The notes under the pieces are model-generated. The model did no database searches. It saw nothing but the letters and a program-made list of their open reading frames with translations, and was not told the DNA's origin. This document shows, piece after piece, positions 41,878-48,172 of a stretch of DNA of 64,000 nucleotides; position 1 is the first letter of the stretch, and the number at the start of each line of letters is the position of its first letter. Source of the stretch: an uncultured Eubacteriales bacterium (GTDB lineage: Bacteria > Bacillota > Clostridia > Christensenellales > Aristaeellaceae). Location of the stretch: assembly GCA_902790175.1 (NCBI GenBank), contig CADAQZ010000012.1, forward strand, positions 1 to 64,000, written 5' to 3'. The translations under genes were made by a program, and so were the position numbers.

Positions 41878-44148
41878 TCAGAGCTTGTTCCTCTGGATCT
41901 TCCCGCTGATGGTCTTAGGCAGCTCGTCGCGGAAGACGACGATGCGGGGGTACTTGTAGGGCGCGGTGCGCTTCTTGACGTAGTTCTGGATGTCCTTCTT
42001 GAGCTCCTCGGTGGCCTCGATGCCCTTGGTGAGCACGATGCTGGCCTTGACCACCTGGCCGCGGATCTCGTCCGGGGCGGCGGAGACGCCGCACTCCAGC
42101 ACGTAGGGCAGCTCCATGATGACACTCTCGATCTCAAACGGCCCGATGCGGTAGCCGGACGACTTGATCACATCGTCGGTGCGGCTGACGTACCAGAAGT
42201 AGCCGTCCTCGTCGCGCCACGCCATGTCGCGCGTGTGGTAGAGGCCGTCGTGCCAGACGGCGTTCGTGGCCTCCTCGTTGCCGTAGTAGCCCGCGAACAG
42301 GCCGCAGGGGATGCCCTTGTCCGTGCGGATGACGATCTCGCCCGGCTCGCCGACCTTCACGGGGTTGCCGTCCGGGTCCACCAGGTCCACGTCGAACAGC
42401 GGGCTGGGCTTGCCCATGGAGCCCACCTTCGGCTTCGTGCCGGCGAAGTTGCCCAGCACCAGCGTGGTTTCGGTCTGGCCGAACGCCTCCATGATGGACA
42501 GGCCCGTGGTCTTCTTGAACAGGTTGAACACCTCGGGGTTCAGCGCTTCGCCCGCGGTGCAGGCGCAGTGGATGCTGGACAGGTCGTACTTGGAGATGTC
42601 CTCGCGGATCAGGAAGCGGTACATCGTCGGCGGTGCGCAGAACGTGGTGATGTTGTACTTCTTGAACATCGGCAGGATGTCGTGCGCGTTGAAGCGGTCG
42701 AAGTCGTACACGAACACGGCGCACTCGTTCATCCATTGCCCGTACAGCTTGCCCCACAGCGCCTTGCCCCAGCCGGTGTCGGAGATCGTGAAGTGCAGGC
42801 CGTCCGGCTCCACGTTGTGCCAGTAGTGGGCGGTGATGAAGTGGCCCAGCGGGTAGCAGTGGGTGTGCATGGCCAGCTTCGGATAGCCGGTGGTGCCGGA
42901 GGAGAAGAACATCACCATCGGGTCGTCGCCGCAGGGCGCGTCCTCGGTGCGGGGGAACGCGGAGCGGTAGCTCAGGTATTCCTCGTCGAAGTCGTGCCAG
43001 CCCTCGCGCTGCCCGCCGCAGAGCACGCGGGTCTTGACGTAGGGACAGGTCTCGATGGCCTCCTCCACGTGCGAGGCGGCGTCGCCGTCGGCCGTGACGC
43101 AGATGGCGCTGACGCCCGCGGTCTCGAAGCGGTACTCGTAATCCTTCTTCAGAAGCTGGTCCGTGGCGGGGATGGCGACGGCGCCCAGCTTGTGCAGCGC
43201 CATCATTACGACCCAGAACTGCCAGTTGCGCCGCAGCACCAGCATCACGCGGTCGCCCCGCTTGACTCCCAGGGCCTTGAAGTAGTTGGCGGCGCGGTTC
43301 GACTTGCGGCTGATGTCCTCGAAGGTGAAGCGCTGCTCGTTGTTGTTGCGGTCCACGTACAGGAGCGCCAGCTTGTCCGGCTTGCGCTCGGCCAGGCCGT
43401 CCACGATGTCGAACGCGAAGTTGAACTTGTCGCGGGTGGGGAACGCGATGTGCTGCAGGTGGCCCTCGCCGTCCTCGTCCAGGTCCACGAACTTGTCGTA
43501 GATCATGTGCTGCTTGGCGGGGCGCACGGCCATCACGGTCTGCGTCACCTGCTCCTGCTCCACCTTCTCGCCGGGCAGCACCACGGCCACGAACGTGCAG
43601 TCGCGGCCGCCGGTGGCGATCATGCCGTGGGGTGTGGAGGAGTTGTAGTAGATGCTGTCGCCCTCCTTGAGGTGCTCCACGTGGTCGCCCACGCGCACGA
43701 GCAGCTCGCCCGAGAGGATCAGGTCAAACTCCTGGCCGGAGTGCGTGGTGGTGTGGATGGGCTTGTCCTGCAGCTCCTCCGAGTAGCTGTAGGTGACCCA
43801 GAAGGGCTCGGCGATCTTGCCGGAGAACATCGGCGCGAGGTTGGAGATCTCGATGCCCTCCTCGCGGGCGGTGATGCTGGCCTCGCCCTTGCGCGTGACG
43901 TTGTAGGAGCGCAGGTTGGCGCTGCGGCCCTCCATCAGGTCGGTGATATCCACGCCGAAGATGCGCGCGCAGTTGTGGATGAACGTGAAGGGCAGGTCGG
44001 CCTTGCCGGCCTCGTAGTCGATGTAGGTCTCCACATCCAGGCCGGTCTGGTCCGCCATATAGACGACGCTGTAGCCCGCGATCTCGCGCAGGGCGCGGAT
44101 ACGGGTGCCCACCTCGTAGAGCATACCGGTCATTTCCGTTGTGTTCAT
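41878..44148 (-). CDS. HTH-cupin-acyl-CoA synthetase fusion protein
   Basis: A 756-residue three-part protein. Residues 12-72 are an XRE-type helix-turn-helix (VGTRIRALREIAGYSVVYMA, then a recognition helix). Residues about 110-190 are a cupin (TTHSGQEFDLILSGELLVRV, TPHGM). Residues about 215-756 are a full acyl-CoA synthetase (FFSSGTTGYPKLAMHTH, AFGQTETT, HTRDMAWRDEDGY, DDVIKSSGYRIGP, KTISGKIQRNKL). So a regulator/ligand module is joined to an enzyme that activates an acid with CoA. The start is ATG at 44148 behind AAGGAGGA; an open frame upstream belongs to the T-box leader. Expression is governed by that T-box. The acid substrate is unknown; short branched or aromatic acids fit the neighbourhood. 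Confidence 0.88.
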   Translation of the reverse strand: MNTTEMTGMLYEVGTRIRALREIAGYSVVYMADQTGLDVETYIDYEAGKADLPFTFIHNCARIFGVDITDLMEGRSANLRSYNVTRKGEASITAREEGIEISNLAPMFSGKIAEPFWVTYSYSEELQDKPIHTTTHSGQEFDLILSGELLVRVGDHVEHLKEGDSIYYNSSTPHGMIATGGRDCTFVAVVLPGEKVEQEQVTQTVMAVRPAKQHMIYDKFVDLDEDGEGHLQHIAFPTRDKFNFAFDIVDGLAERKPDKLALLYVDRNNNEQRFTFEDISRKSNRAANYFKALGVKRGDRVMLVLRRNWQFWVVMMALHKLGAVAIPATDQLLKKDYEYRFETAGVSAICVTADGDAASHVEEAIETCPYVKTRVLCGGQREGWHDFDEEYLSYRSAFPRTEDAPCGDDPMVMFFSSGTTGYPKLAMHTHCYPLGHFITAHYWHNVEPDGLHFTISDTGWGKALWGKLYGQWMNECAVFVYDFDRFNAHDILPMFKKYNITTFCAPPTMYRFLIREDISKYDLSSIHCACTAGEALNPEVFNLFKKTTGLSIMEAFGQTETTLVLGNFAGTKPKVGSMGKPSPLFDVDLVDPDGNPVKVGEPGEIVIRTDKGIPCGLFAGYYGNEEATNAVWHDGLYHTRDMAWRDEDGYFWYVSRTDDVIKSSGYRIGPFEIESVIMELPYVLECGVSAAPDEIRGQVVKASIVLTKGIEATEELKKDIQNYVKKRTAPYKYPRIVVFRDELPKTISGKIQRNKL

Positions 44149-44223
44149 GGGAATGTCCTCCTTCGCTTCGGTCGTACCGGGGTCAATCGAATATCCGACA
44201 AAGTCCTGTGGGAGGTGGTCCAT

Positions 44224-44520
44224 AAAAAAACCCGCCTCACGCCATGCCTTCGCATGCTTGAGACGAGTTGCAATCAACCCGCGGTACCACTCAAATTGCA
44301 CGTTGCCGTGCCCCTTCAGGCTCCATCAAGCCCTGTGCCTTTACGCAGCATTCACGGGAAGCGTCTACTCGATTCCCCGCCCTCGGGGATCTTTCGGGCT
44401 TCCGGCTCGGAAGGGATGGGCTTGTGAGCAACCTGCGTCCGACCTTTCAGCATCCGGCCGGCTCTCTGCGCGCCGATTGGCTCCGCCGTCTTCGTCATCG
44501 CCTTTGAGATATATTCGATT
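44224..44520 (-). promoter_or_regulatory. T-box riboswitch (tRNA-sensing leader)
   Basis: On the minus strand: Stem I foot GCGATGACGAAGACGG, distal AGAGAGCC motif and GGATGCTGAAAGG loop, then Stem II/III sequences, the T-box GAGTGGTACCGCGGG (44292-44278), and a terminator CGTCTCAAGCATGC/GCATGGCGTGAGGCG with seven T (44230-44224). The bulge TGGT predicts a tRNA with A at position 73. Hand pairing of Stem I (CAATC with GGTTG) leaves CTC at 44428-44426 followed by A as the best specifier, i.e. leucine; this is tentative. It controls the HTH-cupin-CoA synthetase gene. Confidence 0.88.
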
Positions 44521-44526
44521 GTGGTT

Positions 44527-44555
44527 ATTCTATCACCAGCCCCGGCGTCTGTCAA
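44527..44555 (-). promoter_or_regulatory. Promoter of the T-box transcript
   Basis: Minus strand TTGACA (44555-44550), 17 bases, TAGAAT (44532-44527). Confidence 0.85.
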
Positions 44556-44712: not shown

Positions 44713-45429
44713 ATGGGTCAGTTCAGCGGGCTTCGCAAGCCCGACCGGCGCGTGATGGTCGTCACCGGCCACTACGGCAGCGGCAAGACGGAGTTCTGCG
44801 TGAGCCTGGCGATGCGGCTGGCGAAGCTGGGCTTCGGGCCGTATGAGCGCCTGGGCCTGGTGGACCTGGACATCGCCAACCCCTACTTCCGCTCCCGCGA
44901 GCGCCGGGAGACGCTGGAAGCCGCGGGCGTAAAGGTGTACGGCAGCGCCTACATCCACGAAATCACCGCCGAGCTTCCCGCGCTGGGCGCGGACATCCGA
45001 GCGCCACTGGAGGACGCGGGCTGCCGCGTGATCGTGGACGTGGGCGGCAACGACTCCGGCGCGGTGGTGCTCAACCAGTTCGGCAAGTACTTCGACCCCG
45101 AGGACGCGCTGTTTCTGATCGTCGTGAACGCCAACCGGCCCGAGACGCGCGACCTGGAAGGGGCGCTTTCGCACCTGCGGGCCATCGAGCAGAAGACCGG
45201 GCGGCGCATTGACGGCGTGATCAACAACTGCCACCTGCTGCGCGAGACCGACGCCGCGTGCGTGGCGAAGGGACACGCGCTGTGCGAGGCGCTCTGCGAA
45301 GCGACGGGGAAGCTCCTCTGGTGCGACACCTACCCCTCGGGCATCGTCCCCGAAGGCGATCTCGCCGGGAAGTACGAGCACCTGCTGCCGCTGGGGATGT
45401 ACATGCGGCCGACATGGATAGACAAATGA
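44713..45429 (+). CDS. P-loop nucleotide-binding protein (MinD/CobQ-like)
   Basis: A 238-residue soluble protein with Walker A GHYGSGKTE (19-27), LGLVDLDIANPYF as a deviant switch region and IVDVGGNDSGA as the second acidic motif. It resembles SIMIBI-class ATPases (MinD, CobB, NubpL-like). Proteins of this type often precede 2-oxoacid:ferredoxin oxidoreductase genes in clostridia, and a role in assembly or maturation is conceivable but unproven. The start at 44713 follows AGAGGTGG. The stop TGA is the first part of an ATGAGGAATGAG repeat. Confidence 0.8.
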   Translation: MGQFSGLRKPDRRVMVVTGHYGSGKTEFCVSLAMRLAKLGFGPYERLGLVDLDIANPYFRSRERRETLEAAGVKVYGSAYIHEITAELPALGADIRAPLEDAGCRVIVDVGGNDSGAVVLNQFGKYFDPEDALFLIVVNANRPETRDLEGALSHLRAIEQKTGRRIDGVINNCHLLRETDAACVAKGHALCEALCEATGKLLWCDTYPSGIVPEGDLAGKYEHLLPLGMYMRPTWIDK

Positions 45430-45584: not shown

Positions 45585-45818
45585 ATGGCAAACAGAAGGT
45601 TCAAGGTCGTCTTCGACCGGGAGCGCTGCAAGGGATGCGAGCTGTGCCGCAGCTTCTGCCCGAAGCAGATCATCGCCATGGACACCCAGGTGAACGCCAA
45701 GGGCTACTGCCCCGCGATGATCGTCGATCAGGAGCAGTGCATCGGCTGCCAGAGCTGCGCGACCGTCTGTCCCGACTGCGCGATCGAGATTTTCCAGCTG
45801 GAGGAGGGGGAAGCATGA
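45585..45818 (+). CDS. 2-oxoacid:ferredoxin oxidoreductase, ferredoxin-like delta subunit
   Basis: A 77-residue dicluster ferredoxin subunit. Two 4Fe-4S motifs: CKGCELCRSFCPKQI and CIGCQSCATVCPDC. It moves electrons from the TPP site to free ferredoxin. The stop overlaps the alpha subunit start by ATGA. Gene order delta-alpha-beta-gamma is that of VOR/KOR-type complexes. Confidence 0.93.
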   Translation: MANRRFKVVFDRERCKGCELCRSFCPKQIIAMDTQVNAKGYCPAMIVDQEQCIGCQSCATVCPDCAIEIFQLEEGEA

Positions 45819-46891
45819 GCGAGAAGGTATTGATGAAGGGCAACGAGGCCTTCGCCGAGGCGGTCATCCGCGGCGGCGCGCGCTTCTACTTTGGCTATCC
45901 CATCACCCCCCAGAGCGAGATCCCGGAGTTCATGAGCCGGGAGCTGCCCAAGCGGGGCGGCAAGTTCCTCCAGGCGGAGAGCGAGCTGGGCGCGATCAAC
46001 ATGGCCTACGGCTGCGGCGCGGCCGGCGGCAGCGGCTTTATCTCGTCCTCGTCCCCGGGCATCGCGCTGATGCAGGAGGGCATGAGCTTCCTCTGCGGCG
46101 CGGAGGTGCCGGTGACGCTTCTGAACGTGTCGCGCGGCGGCCCCGGCATCGGCTCGATCCAACCCGGCCAGGCCGACTACAACCAGGTGACCCGCGGCGG
46201 CGGCAACGGCGACTATCGCATCCCCGTGTTCGCGCCCGCGTCGATCCAGGAGGCCGTGGACATCCTCTACGAGTGCCCGTCCATCGCCGACAAGTATCGC
46301 AACCCGGTGATGGTGCTGGCCGACGGCCTGATGGGCCAGATGATGGAGCCCGTGATGCTGCCTGAGGAGAAGCACGCGCTGACCAGCGAGGAGATCTCCA
46401 CCGCGAAGCCCTGGGCGCTGTCCGGCAGCAAGAAGGGCACGCGCAGCGTGGTCAAGAGCCTGCGGCTGCAGCCGGAGGTGCTGGAGGAGCACGTGGAGCA
46501 CCTGTTTGAGAAGTACGCCGCCATGGAGAAGGAACTGGAGCGCGTCGAGGTCGAGAACCTCGAGGGCGCCGAGGTCGTGTTCGTGGCGTTCGGCACGATG
46601 GCGCGCCTGGCCCGCGAGGCCATGGAGCTTCTGGAGGCCCAGGGCGTGAAGGCCGGCCTGATCCGGCCCATCAGCCTGTGGCCGTATCCCTACGGCGCGT
46701 TTGAGCAGATCCCCGCCACCGCGAAGGCCGTGATCTCCGTGGAGCTGAGCATGGGCCAGATGCTCCAGGACATCAACCTGGGCGTGAAGGGCCGCGTGCC
46801 CGTCAAACTCATCCACCGCGTGGGCGGCATGCTGCCGACGAGCCTGGAGGTCGTGGAAAAGACGAAGAAGATACTGGAGGAAGTGCGATGA
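45815..46891 (+). CDS. vorB: 2-oxoacid:ferredoxin oxidoreductase alpha subunit (VorB-like)
   Basis: A 358-residue subunit. Characteristic stretches are FYFGYPITPQSEIPEFMSR, FLQAESELGAINMAYG, SSSSPGIALMQEGMSF and NVSRGGPGIGSIQPGQADY; the latter two are typical of alpha subunits that act on branched-chain 2-oxo acids or 2-oxoglutarate. The complex decarboxylates the 2-oxo acid and makes the acyl-CoA with reduced ferredoxin. VOR (branched-chain) is the best guess because of the surrounding CoA ligases and leucine-like T-box, but KOR cannot be excluded from sequence reading. Confidence 0.88.
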   Translation: MSEKVLMKGNEAFAEAVIRGGARFYFGYPITPQSEIPEFMSRELPKRGGKFLQAESELGAINMAYGCGAAGGSGFISSSSPGIALMQEGMSFLCGAEVPVTLLNVSRGGPGIGSIQPGQADYNQVTRGGGNGDYRIPVFAPASIQEAVDILYECPSIADKYRNPVMVLADGLMGQMMEPVMLPEEKHALTSEEISTAKPWALSGSKKGTRSVVKSLRLQPEVLEEHVEHLFEKYAAMEKELERVEVENLEGAEVVFVAFGTMARLAREAMELLEAQGVKAGLIRPISLWPYPYGAFEQIPATAKAVISVELSMGQMLQDINLGVKGRVPVKLIHRVGGMLPTSLEVVEKTKKILEEVR

Positions 46892-47637
46892 AACCTGTAT
46901 TTACCGTAACAGAGGGCATGCTGCCCGTCAGCACCAGCTATTGCCCCGGCTGCACCCACGGCGTCGCACACCGCATCATCATGGAGACGCTGGACGAGAT
47001 GGGCCTGCTCGGGGACACCCTGGGCGTCGCGCCCATCGGCTGCTCCGTCGTGGCGCACCAGTTCATGAACGTGGACATGTGCGAGGCGGCCCACGGCCGC
47101 GCCCCGGCGGTGGCCTCCGGCATCCGCCGCGTGCACCCGGACAAGGTCGTGTTCACCTACCAGGGCGACGGCGACCTGGCCTCCATCGGCATGGGCGAGA
47201 TCGTCCACGCCGCGGCCCGTGGGGAGAAGTTCACCACGTTCTTCATCAACAACGGCATCTACGGCATGACCGGCGGCCAGATGGCCCCCACCACGCTGAT
47301 CGGCCAGCGCTCCACCACCTGCGTGGACGGCCGCACGCGCGAGCAGGCGGGCATGCCGCTGAAGATCTGCGAGCTGCTGGCCACGCTGGACGGCCCGGCC
47401 TACATCGAGCGCGTGGCGCTGAACAGCCCGGCGCACATCCGCGCGGCGAAGAAGGCCGTGCGCAAGGCGTTTGAGTACCAGCTCGCGGGCAAGGGCTTCA
47501 CGTTCATCGAGATGCTGTCCATCTGTCCCACGAACTGGGGCCTGACGCCGCCCAAGGCGATGCAGTGGCTGGAGGAGAACATGATGGCCTACTATCCGCT
47601 GGGCGTCTACCGCGACGTTGAAAAGGAGGCGCAGTGA
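46888..47637 (+). CDS. 2-oxoacid:ferredoxin oxidoreductase beta subunit (TPP-binding)
   Basis: A 249-residue subunit carrying thiamine diphosphate. It shows YCPGCTHGVAHRI with cluster cysteine, the TPP motif FTYQGDGDLASIGMGE and NNGIYGMTGGQMAPTT, all hallmarks of KOR/VOR beta subunits. It starts in an ATGA overlap with alpha. It forms the catalytic centre with the alpha subunit. Confidence 0.93.
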   Translation: MKPVFTVTEGMLPVSTSYCPGCTHGVAHRIIMETLDEMGLLGDTLGVAPIGCSVVAHQFMNVDMCEAAHGRAPAVASGIRRVHPDKVVFTYQGDGDLASIGMGEIVHAAARGEKFTTFFINNGIYGMTGGQMAPTTLIGQRSTTCVDGRTREQAGMPLKICELLATLDGPAYIERVALNSPAHIRAAKKAVRKAFEYQLAGKGFTFIEMLSICPTNWGLTPPKAMQWLEENMMAYYPLGVYRDVEKEAQ

Positions 47638-47638
47638 C

Positions 47639-48172
47639 ATGGCGACGACGAAGCTGTTTTTCGCCGGTTCCGGCGGACAGGGCGTATTGACGATGGGCCA
47701 GATGCTGACCTACGCGGCCATGTACGCCGACATGAACGCCACCTGGCTTCCCTCCTACGGCCCGGAGATGCGCGGCGGCACCGCGAACTGCACCGTGGTC
47801 ATCAGCCCCGACAAGCCCGTGTCCTGCCCGCTGATCTACGAGGCGGACGACGTGGTGGTGATGAACCTGCCGTCGCTGTTGAAGTTTGAATCGCTGGTGA
47901 AGCCCGGCGGCAACCTGTTCGTGAACAGTTCGCTGATCGAGCAGAAGGCGACGCGCGACGACATCAACGTCTACTACGTGCCCGCGAACGACATCGCGCT
48001 GGAGCTGGGCAACGCCCGCACCGCGAACGTCGTGATGCTCGGCGCGCTGATGTCCGTCAGCCCCGTCGTGCCGGTGGAGATGGTCTACAAGATCATGGAA
48101 AAGACGTTCTCCGGCCGCAAGGCGCATTTGCTGGACATCAACAAGACCGCGTTCCACGCCTGGAAGCAGTGA
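47639..48172 (+). CDS. 2-oxoacid:ferredoxin oxidoreductase gamma subunit
   Basis: A 177-residue subunit. Recognised by the N-terminal FFAGSGGQGVLTMGQM motif, TWLPSYGPEMRGGTANCTVVIS and NTALAIELGNAR-like region, typical of the CoA-binding gamma subunits. Its ATG follows AAAAGGAGG, one base after the beta stop. It is the last gene of the oxidoreductase operon; a bidirectional terminator follows. Confidence 0.92.
   Translation: MATTKLFFAGSGGQGVLTMGQMLTYAAMYADMNATWLPSYGPEMRGGTANCTVVISPDKPVSCPLIYEADDVVVMNLPSLLKFESLVKPGGNLFVNSSLIEQKATRDDINVYYVPANDIALELGNARTANVVMLGALMSVSPVVPVEMVYKIMEKTFSGRKAHLLDINKTAFHAWKQ

Follow-up and report, generated by a model that had tools for sequence, protein, structure and literature searches.

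The window (the whole stretch of 64,000 nucleotides analysed here) carries on its minus strand a T-box leader in front of a gene for an acyl-CoA synthetase joined to its own HTH and cupin domains. T-boxes turn genes on when charged tRNA is low. We asked which tRNA this leader reads, and what a shortage of its amino acid would have to do with the activation of a carboxylic acid.

A T-box leader ahead of an HTH-cupin-acyl-CoA synthetase gene

The gene runs from an ATG at 44148 to a stop at 41878 (41878..44148, minus strand) and encodes a protein of 756 aa. HTH, Cupin_2, AMP-binding and AMP-binding_C families all matched over their cut-offs, in keeping with the fusion named in the preliminary description of this DNA. 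In five related loci (L152, L157, L167, L169 and L181), a single AUC T-box precedes HTH-cupin and synthetase in separate frames, which makes the fusion possibly the later event.

The Rfam T-box model RF00230 matched at 44507-44256 of the minus strand (58.6 bits; E 3.4e-12 when 621 bases were searched), over model positions 1-219 of 219. The match spans the leader from Stem I to the antiterminator (44256..44507); the elements that follow are likewise on the minus strand. The promoter (44527..44555) reads TTGACA-N17-TAGAAT, has 11 of 12 consensus matches and has an extended -10, with TG ahead of the -10. Sequence and Rfam alignment together place the two sides of a likely Stem I kink-turn (GATGA, 44495..44499, on the 5' side; CGAG, 44409-44406, on the 3' side), the AGAGA motif of distal Stem I (44463..44467), and Stem II (44357..44403), with AGUA (44369-44366) as its S-turn side. 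The lower helix of the specifier loop is readable from the sequence, with GAAG (44490..44493) as the 5' strand and CTTC (44413-44410) as its partner. The antiterminator (44258..44294), placed by fold and Rfam alignment, carries the UGGN bulge as UGGU (44289-44286), predicted to pair with A73-CCA of the tRNA. Behind it, folding reveals an intrinsic terminator with its U-run (44224..44269), and a Shine-Dalgarno sequence, AAGGAGG, lies at 44157..44163.

Antiterminator and terminator are mutually exclusive, as the strand 44269-44258, around CGTCTCAA, belongs to both and forms the 5' strand of the terminator. The terminator hairpin folds at -23.7 kcal/mol, and none of 200 shuffles was as stable (z -4.37). 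The antiterminator folds at -16.8 kcal/mol with UGGUACC as a 7-nt bulge; it has no excess stability over shuffles (z -1.39, 16 of 200 as stable). A T-run with a folding hairpin ahead of it is present in 120 of 136 relatives. A promoter/terminator scan listed no minus-strand terminator. Single-sequence folding was no better than shuffles for the whole leader (z -0.78) or for Stem I alone (z +1.57). Because these z-scores are uninformative, support for Stem I comes from the Rfam match and from conservation in relatives. A plasmid search using the leader gave no match. Judged on its sequence, this is a real and complete T-box with transcription-attenuating anatomy; the preliminary description was right about its completeness, its readable promoter and terminator, and its A73-type bulge.

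The score of 58.6 bits is under the Rfam gathering score of 93 bits, which is a curation threshold and no biological feature, and the leader would therefore be absent from a default annotation. It shares this with most T-boxes of its own genome (G000), where 10 of 13 matches, the window leader among them, fall below the threshold. In ten related loci, leaders of at least the gathering score were found before the first gene in six of ten and in second-gene places in five of ten. In a GC-rich genome such as this one, leaders of this kind can escape the Rfam default threshold.

We surveyed leaders at 110 loci, namely the 80 best loci (of 594 matching stretches) and 30 loci from a family search. 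The T-box word was found upstream of the gene at 102 of the 110, so that the leader conservation upstream of orthologues, which the preliminary description had put forward as a check, was borne out. Among the other eight, L026 and L055 carry a variant T-box word, L031 has the word on the correct strand, L051 and L120 come without upstream DNA, and L073, L076 and L115 lack a good copy. A phylum-level search, at 48-57% identity, found the word at 4 of 29 loci (L223, L224, L248 and L249) and not at the other 25, and for some orthologues no T-box word lies within 650 bases. By these counts, the link between T-box and gene is strong in close orthologues but thins out further away.

The region around the promoter (window 44575-44508, minus strand) holds recurrent words of its own. 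TTTAAC stands ahead of the promoter in several congeners, and AAYYGAATA or AATTTCATA lies 3' of the -10 in some leaders, between the -10 and Stem I. A loose motif in this last interval, whose pattern was chosen post hoc, was found in 30 of 140 leaders vs 6.2 in shuffles. It hints, weakly, at a possible operator for the HTH part.

The specifier codon

We located the specifier with a positional rule in which the codon is followed by one nucleotide and then by the lower Stem I helix; this equals the '+0' frame of TBDB as given in the available text of PMC7778990. In the window leader, the specifier bulge ends at the lower helix GAAG/CTTC, and the codon is therefore AUC (44417-44415, minus strand). 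Position, conservation and the rule as checked on leaders of the same genome thus identify the specifier of this T-box as AUC, isoleucine, and the tRNA expected to respond is tRNA-Ile. Bacterial tRNA-Ile and tRNA-Val generally carry A73, the base that the UGGU bulge would pair with.

The preliminary description had instead proposed CUC as the specifier and tRNA-Leu as the effector. That CUC exists, at 44426..44428 of the minus strand, in the Stem I 3' strand, and is unchanged in eight of ten close leaders (that of the window, L014, plus nine more). A73 of tRNA-Leu would suit the UGGU bulge too. According to PMC7778990, CUC is also the commonest Leu specifier. The triplet, however, forms the 3' strand of a helix, GAGC/GCUC, at the wrong spacing from the lower helix, and it is replaced by TTC in L017 and L045, whereas the AUC position is unchanged in ten of ten. 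No Leu codon occupies the specifier position of the window leader. Covariance-model search with specifier extraction, which the preliminary description had named as its check, put a different codon, AUC, in the specifier loop, and the leucine assignment falls.

A survey of relatives gave the same answer. A script accepting any triplet was run on 223 gene copies, which include some duplicates from different search routes, and returned ATC in 106, GTN in 57, another triplet in five and none in 55 (16 of these 55 were read by hand). Among the 168 leaders with a triplet, the 62 that are not AUC thus consist of the 57 of the Val class and the five others, which are mis-hits elsewhere in the leader and were corrected by hand.

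As a control, we read the T-box leaders of the window's own genome by hand and named their downstream proteins by eye from the sequences; Pfam was run on the protein of L002 and on the window's own gene. The rule returned AUG before metG, AUC before ileS, GUC before valS, UUC before pheS, AAC before asparagine synthase, UGG before a trpB-like gene and before an ABC solute-binding protein, UAC before an aminotransferase and, less surely, UAC before a symporter. At the thrS leader it was one base off, and the weakest match, before hisS, was unreadable. It also returned CUC before an HMGL-like gene (L002), so a Leu T-box, read by the same rule, stands elsewhere in this genome. With all this against it, a leucine T-box with CUC as its specifier is hardly credible here.

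Two groups of T-boxes seen along the way concern other genes. One comprises L003, L007 and L008 of the window's own genome, the UAC T-boxes of the symporter and the aminotransferase and the UGG T-box of the ABC solute-binding protein, all read by eye. The other comprises Leu-type T-boxes before HMGL-like genes: that of L002, on contig C47, and two with CTG, hand-read, at L100 (5365-5594, minus strand) and L106 (5357-5590, minus strand), both divergent to the synthetase operon. These Leu-type T-boxes would fit leucine made from the valine oxo acid.

The loop that holds the isoleucine codon can be outlined from the relatives. Of 136 distinct leaders, 104 have GAAG/CTTC as the lower helix, 14 have GGAG/CTCC and the remainder are mixed; 530 of 544 cells are paired, a count that is biased because the search pattern favoured pairing strands. 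The short helix above the codon was unconstrained by the pattern, and 334 of its 408 pairs are kept, whereas 1000 re-dealings, which ignore kinship, kept 273 on average and 293 at most. This upper helix confines the codon to a compact loop, with 2 nt 5' and 5 nt 3'. Of the 95 Ile leaders, 75 have AC as the 5' dinucleotide; of the 41 Val leaders, 36 have AG. AGUA/GAA is the S-turn motif of the T-box specifier loop. By eye, the loop lacks it, as does that of the ileS leader in the same genome, and this resemblance of a compact loop without S-turn suggests that the window switch was derived from an ileS-type T-box.

Paralogous synthetases, their codons and residue 461

Many relatives carry two HTH-cupin-acyl-CoA synthetases in tandem, with an AUC (Ile) T-box ahead of the first and a GUN (Val) T-box ahead of the second. 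On the same strand, 46 of the 80 best loci show a second match with 45% identity or more, in some cases cut by a contig end. A typical locus reads T-box(Ile), synthetase 1, T-box(Val), synthetase 2, P-loop protein, delta, VorB, VorA and VorC; in G245, G182 and G161, both synthetase genes abut with no second T-box between them. For the tree, we dropped identical proteins and those shorter than 600 aa, which left 190, 157 with a codon label and 33 without. On the FastTree phylogeny, the labelled proteins need two codon changes; a Val clade of 48 accounts for one, and the other is a switch to Val within the Ile clade, in three rows (L034, L114 and L118).

The codon goes with a single residue of the enzyme. 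At position 461 (Gly461 in the window), all 106 Ile enzymes have Gly and all 51 Val enzymes have Ala, an agreement of 157/157, and the hand codon readings preceded the inspection of this residue. We compared the clades position by position, using 100 of the 106 Ile rows (distant ones were left out) and all 51 Val rows. With the three switched rows included, 461 is the sole position of the enzyme part at which Ile and Val residues are disjoint. Positions 96 and 101, in the N-terminal regulatory part, are also disjoint, but at these the main Val clade and the switched rows have different residues. A pairs test on the codon switches gave p 0.5 and was unable to reach significance because the tree holds only two independent switches.

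Genes outside the tree follow the same pattern. All 11 distant genes agree by hand-read codon, with ATC and Gly in L159, L167, L169, L170, L172, L181, L182, L223 and L224, and GTC and Ala in L248 and L249. Thirteen congener leaders (L252-L261 and L263-L265), which are near copies, combine ATC with Gly. Copies without a readable T-box (n=33) have Gly in 17 cases, Ala in 15 and Met in one. The picture is complicated by a further synthetase in the window's own genome (L171), which is of the Ala kind and has no T-box.

The best PDB match of the synthetase is 3etc (E 1.4e-187, query 232-754, the synthetase part), which is also the sole PDB match of a Val-type relative at 1e-100. This structure is MacsMa of Methanosarcina acetivorans, which prefers 2-methylbutyrate; its Trp259, the counterpart of the Trp that determines acyl range in acetyl-CoA synthetase, is critical for substrate binding, according to the available portion of PMC10455477. 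In the window enzyme, residue 461 lies in the segment DTGW-G461-K-A-L-W465, four residues before Trp465, which aligns to Trp259 in the 3etc alignment. The placement uses a numbering offset of 23 deduced from that alignment with the help of the 3ETC entry title. An extra methyl group at this residue would shrink the pocket, as expected for isobutyrate vs 2-methylbutyrate.

Since the codon matches one enzyme residue in relatives, the T-box appears to report what the enzyme handles. If this is true, the codon could be used to read the substrate of an enzyme from its genome, and the locus would be a case of an RNA codon and one enzyme residue changing together, hence predicting substrate.

The oxidoreductase operon and a candidate route to isoleucine

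Divergent from the synthetase, the plus strand carries an operon of the branched-chain type, again as first described. It consists of a conserved P-loop protein (44713..45429, with GHYGSGKT and DLDIVNPYFR), a ferredoxin-like delta subunit (45585..45818; Fer4 families over cut-off, no NCBIfam model over cut-off among the 25 matches listed), a VorB-type alpha subunit (45815..46891; NF005507, 466.9 bits, cut-off 399), a TPP-type beta subunit (46888..47637; TPP_enzyme_C over cut-off, NCBIfam beta models below cut-off) and a gamma subunit (47618..48172; TIGR02175, 91 bits, cut-off 81.1). A neighbour survey of the 80 best loci, queried with seven window proteins, found VorB near the synthetase in 50: downstream on the same strand in 40, divergent upstream in nine and otherwise placed in one. 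Among the 30 loci without VorB, seven cover the full 6 kb downstream and 23 cover less. The P-loop protein, for which no Pfam family over cut-off and no NCBIfam match was found, is present in 48 of the 50 VorB-bearing loci and is a possible partner of the oxidoreductase. No second T-box was found on the window contig, and none before the oxidoreductase genes. The operon, being divergent, thus lies outside this switch in the window, and the switch would gate only the acid-activating step here.

Enzyme family and codon-residue agreement suggest a role for the gene in amino acid supply, and we hold with good confidence that the best explanation is an AUC T-box governing the activation of 2-methylbutyrate toward isoleucine. 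When isoleucine runs short, uncharged tRNA-Ile(GAU) would bind the specifier and the UGGU bulge, the antiterminator would form and the synthetase gene would be transcribed. The synthetase would then activate 2-methylbutyrate left over from the isoleucine breakdown of other microbes, the VorB-type 2-oxoacid:ferredoxin oxidoreductase would carboxylate 2-methylbutyryl-CoA to the oxo acid, and a branched-chain aminotransferase would convert this to isoleucine. In relatives, the second copy behind its valine-specifier T-box would do likewise from isobutyrate to valine. With moderate confidence, we extend this to a regulon, controlled by tRNA charging, that rebuilds branched-chain amino acids from scavenged short-chain acids. 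In such a regulon, the codon of each paralogue (AUC/GUN) would be matched to its acyl pocket (Gly/Ala), the Val switch would have arisen from the Ile switch by duplication and codon change, and the HTH-cupin part would serve as a second, protein-level sensor.

The direction of the chemistry can also be read the other way. 2-Oxoacid:ferredoxin oxidoreductases are reversible, and many related loci come, by their titles, from gut or rumen samples, where the oxidoreductase might oxidise branched-chain oxo acids and the synthetase, run in reverse, release the acid. A T-box that is on when the amino acid is short has the wrong sign for breakdown; this polarity favours an anabolic role, and we regard the catabolic alternative as very unlikely. 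The synthetase might instead prime branched-chain fatty acid synthesis like MbcS of S. aureus, with the isoleucine control tracking precursor supply. MbcS (NF047394) is indeed the closest NCBIfam model, at 427.5 bits against a cut-off of 850 that is not reached, and in the available text of PMC10026030 it activates 2-methylbutyrate and isobutyrate for FabH. The oxidoreductase linkage described above, from a survey that covered the seven query proteins among the neighbours, speaks against such priming, and distinct Ile and Val T-boxes on the paralogues suit amino acid supply better; we consider it unlikely.

The gene content of the host bears on the supply of isoleucine by the activation of 2-methylbutyrate. 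In the window's own genome (87.8% complete), ilvC and ilvD were not found over cut-off, with one weak ilvC-model match at 22 bits. A class IV aminotransferase is present. An acetolactate synthase over cut-off (C14:71249-72937) speaks against a simple picture, as do ilvC and ilvD in the genus: of its 21 genomes, two have ilvC over cut-off and five ilvD. The synthetase (E 1e-220) was found in 19 of these. Among 120 family genomes, an ilvC match (E 1e-20) was found in 4 of 38 with the fused synthetase, including G070, which is cut by its contig, vs 38 of 82 others (p 8e-5, kinship uncorrected). Counted by genus, the link vanishes (5/14 vs 15/36). In genera g7, g14 and g24, the ilvC genomes and the fused-gene genomes are different ones; the two occur together in one of three fused genomes of g30 and in three of three of g31. 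All 40 tRNA hits of the window's genome were typed; tRNA-Ile was not among them and tRNA-Ala was represented by CGC only, which probably reflects an assembly gap at the ribosomal RNA operons.

If the isoleucine reading is true, T-box control would extend from the making, charging and importing of amino acids to the activation of carboxylic acids, and candidate genes with a candidate regulation would be available for rumen and gut anaerobes, which have long been known to use 2-methylbutyrate and isobutyrate. In the main text of open-licence papers, among the matches listed, we found no report of T-box control of an acyl-CoA synthetase, of a branched-chain ferredoxin oxidoreductase or of 2-methylbutyrate or isobutyrate use. 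Against that literature, the T-box mechanism is known, and the target pathway and the codon-pocket match appear to be new.

The proposed chemistry has a precedent in the rumen. As far as the available text of PMC7356843 goes, 2-methylbutyrate is an Ile precursor and isobutyrate a Val precursor in rumen fermentation, and the accessible part of PMC2812497 gives reductive carboxylation of 2-methylbutyrate as the probable isoleucine route of Methanobrevibacter ruminantium; both cite Allison and co-workers for the routes from 2-methylbutyrate to isoleucine and from isobutyrate to valine. The likeness to the window system lies in the reductive carboxylation of branched acids. The difference is that these portions give no acid-activation gene of Clostridia and no T-box control. 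As for the enzymes, MacsMa is the best solved-structure match and shares the GWGK..W segment with the window protein, but it is archaeal and the match spans the synthetase part only. MacsMa is not known to have a T-box. MbcS resembles the window enzyme in being an AMP-forming synthetase for both acids, but one MbcS enzyme serves the two and feeds fatty acids. As for the switch, the leader has what RF00230 T-boxes of the transcriptional kind have, as in B. subtilis: a specifier in Stem I, AGAGA and apical motifs, the S-turn side of Stem II, a UGGN bulge and an antiterminator/terminator switch. It differs from them in its compact 2 nt x 5 nt loop, in a score under the gathering threshold and in its target, an acyl-CoA synthetase.
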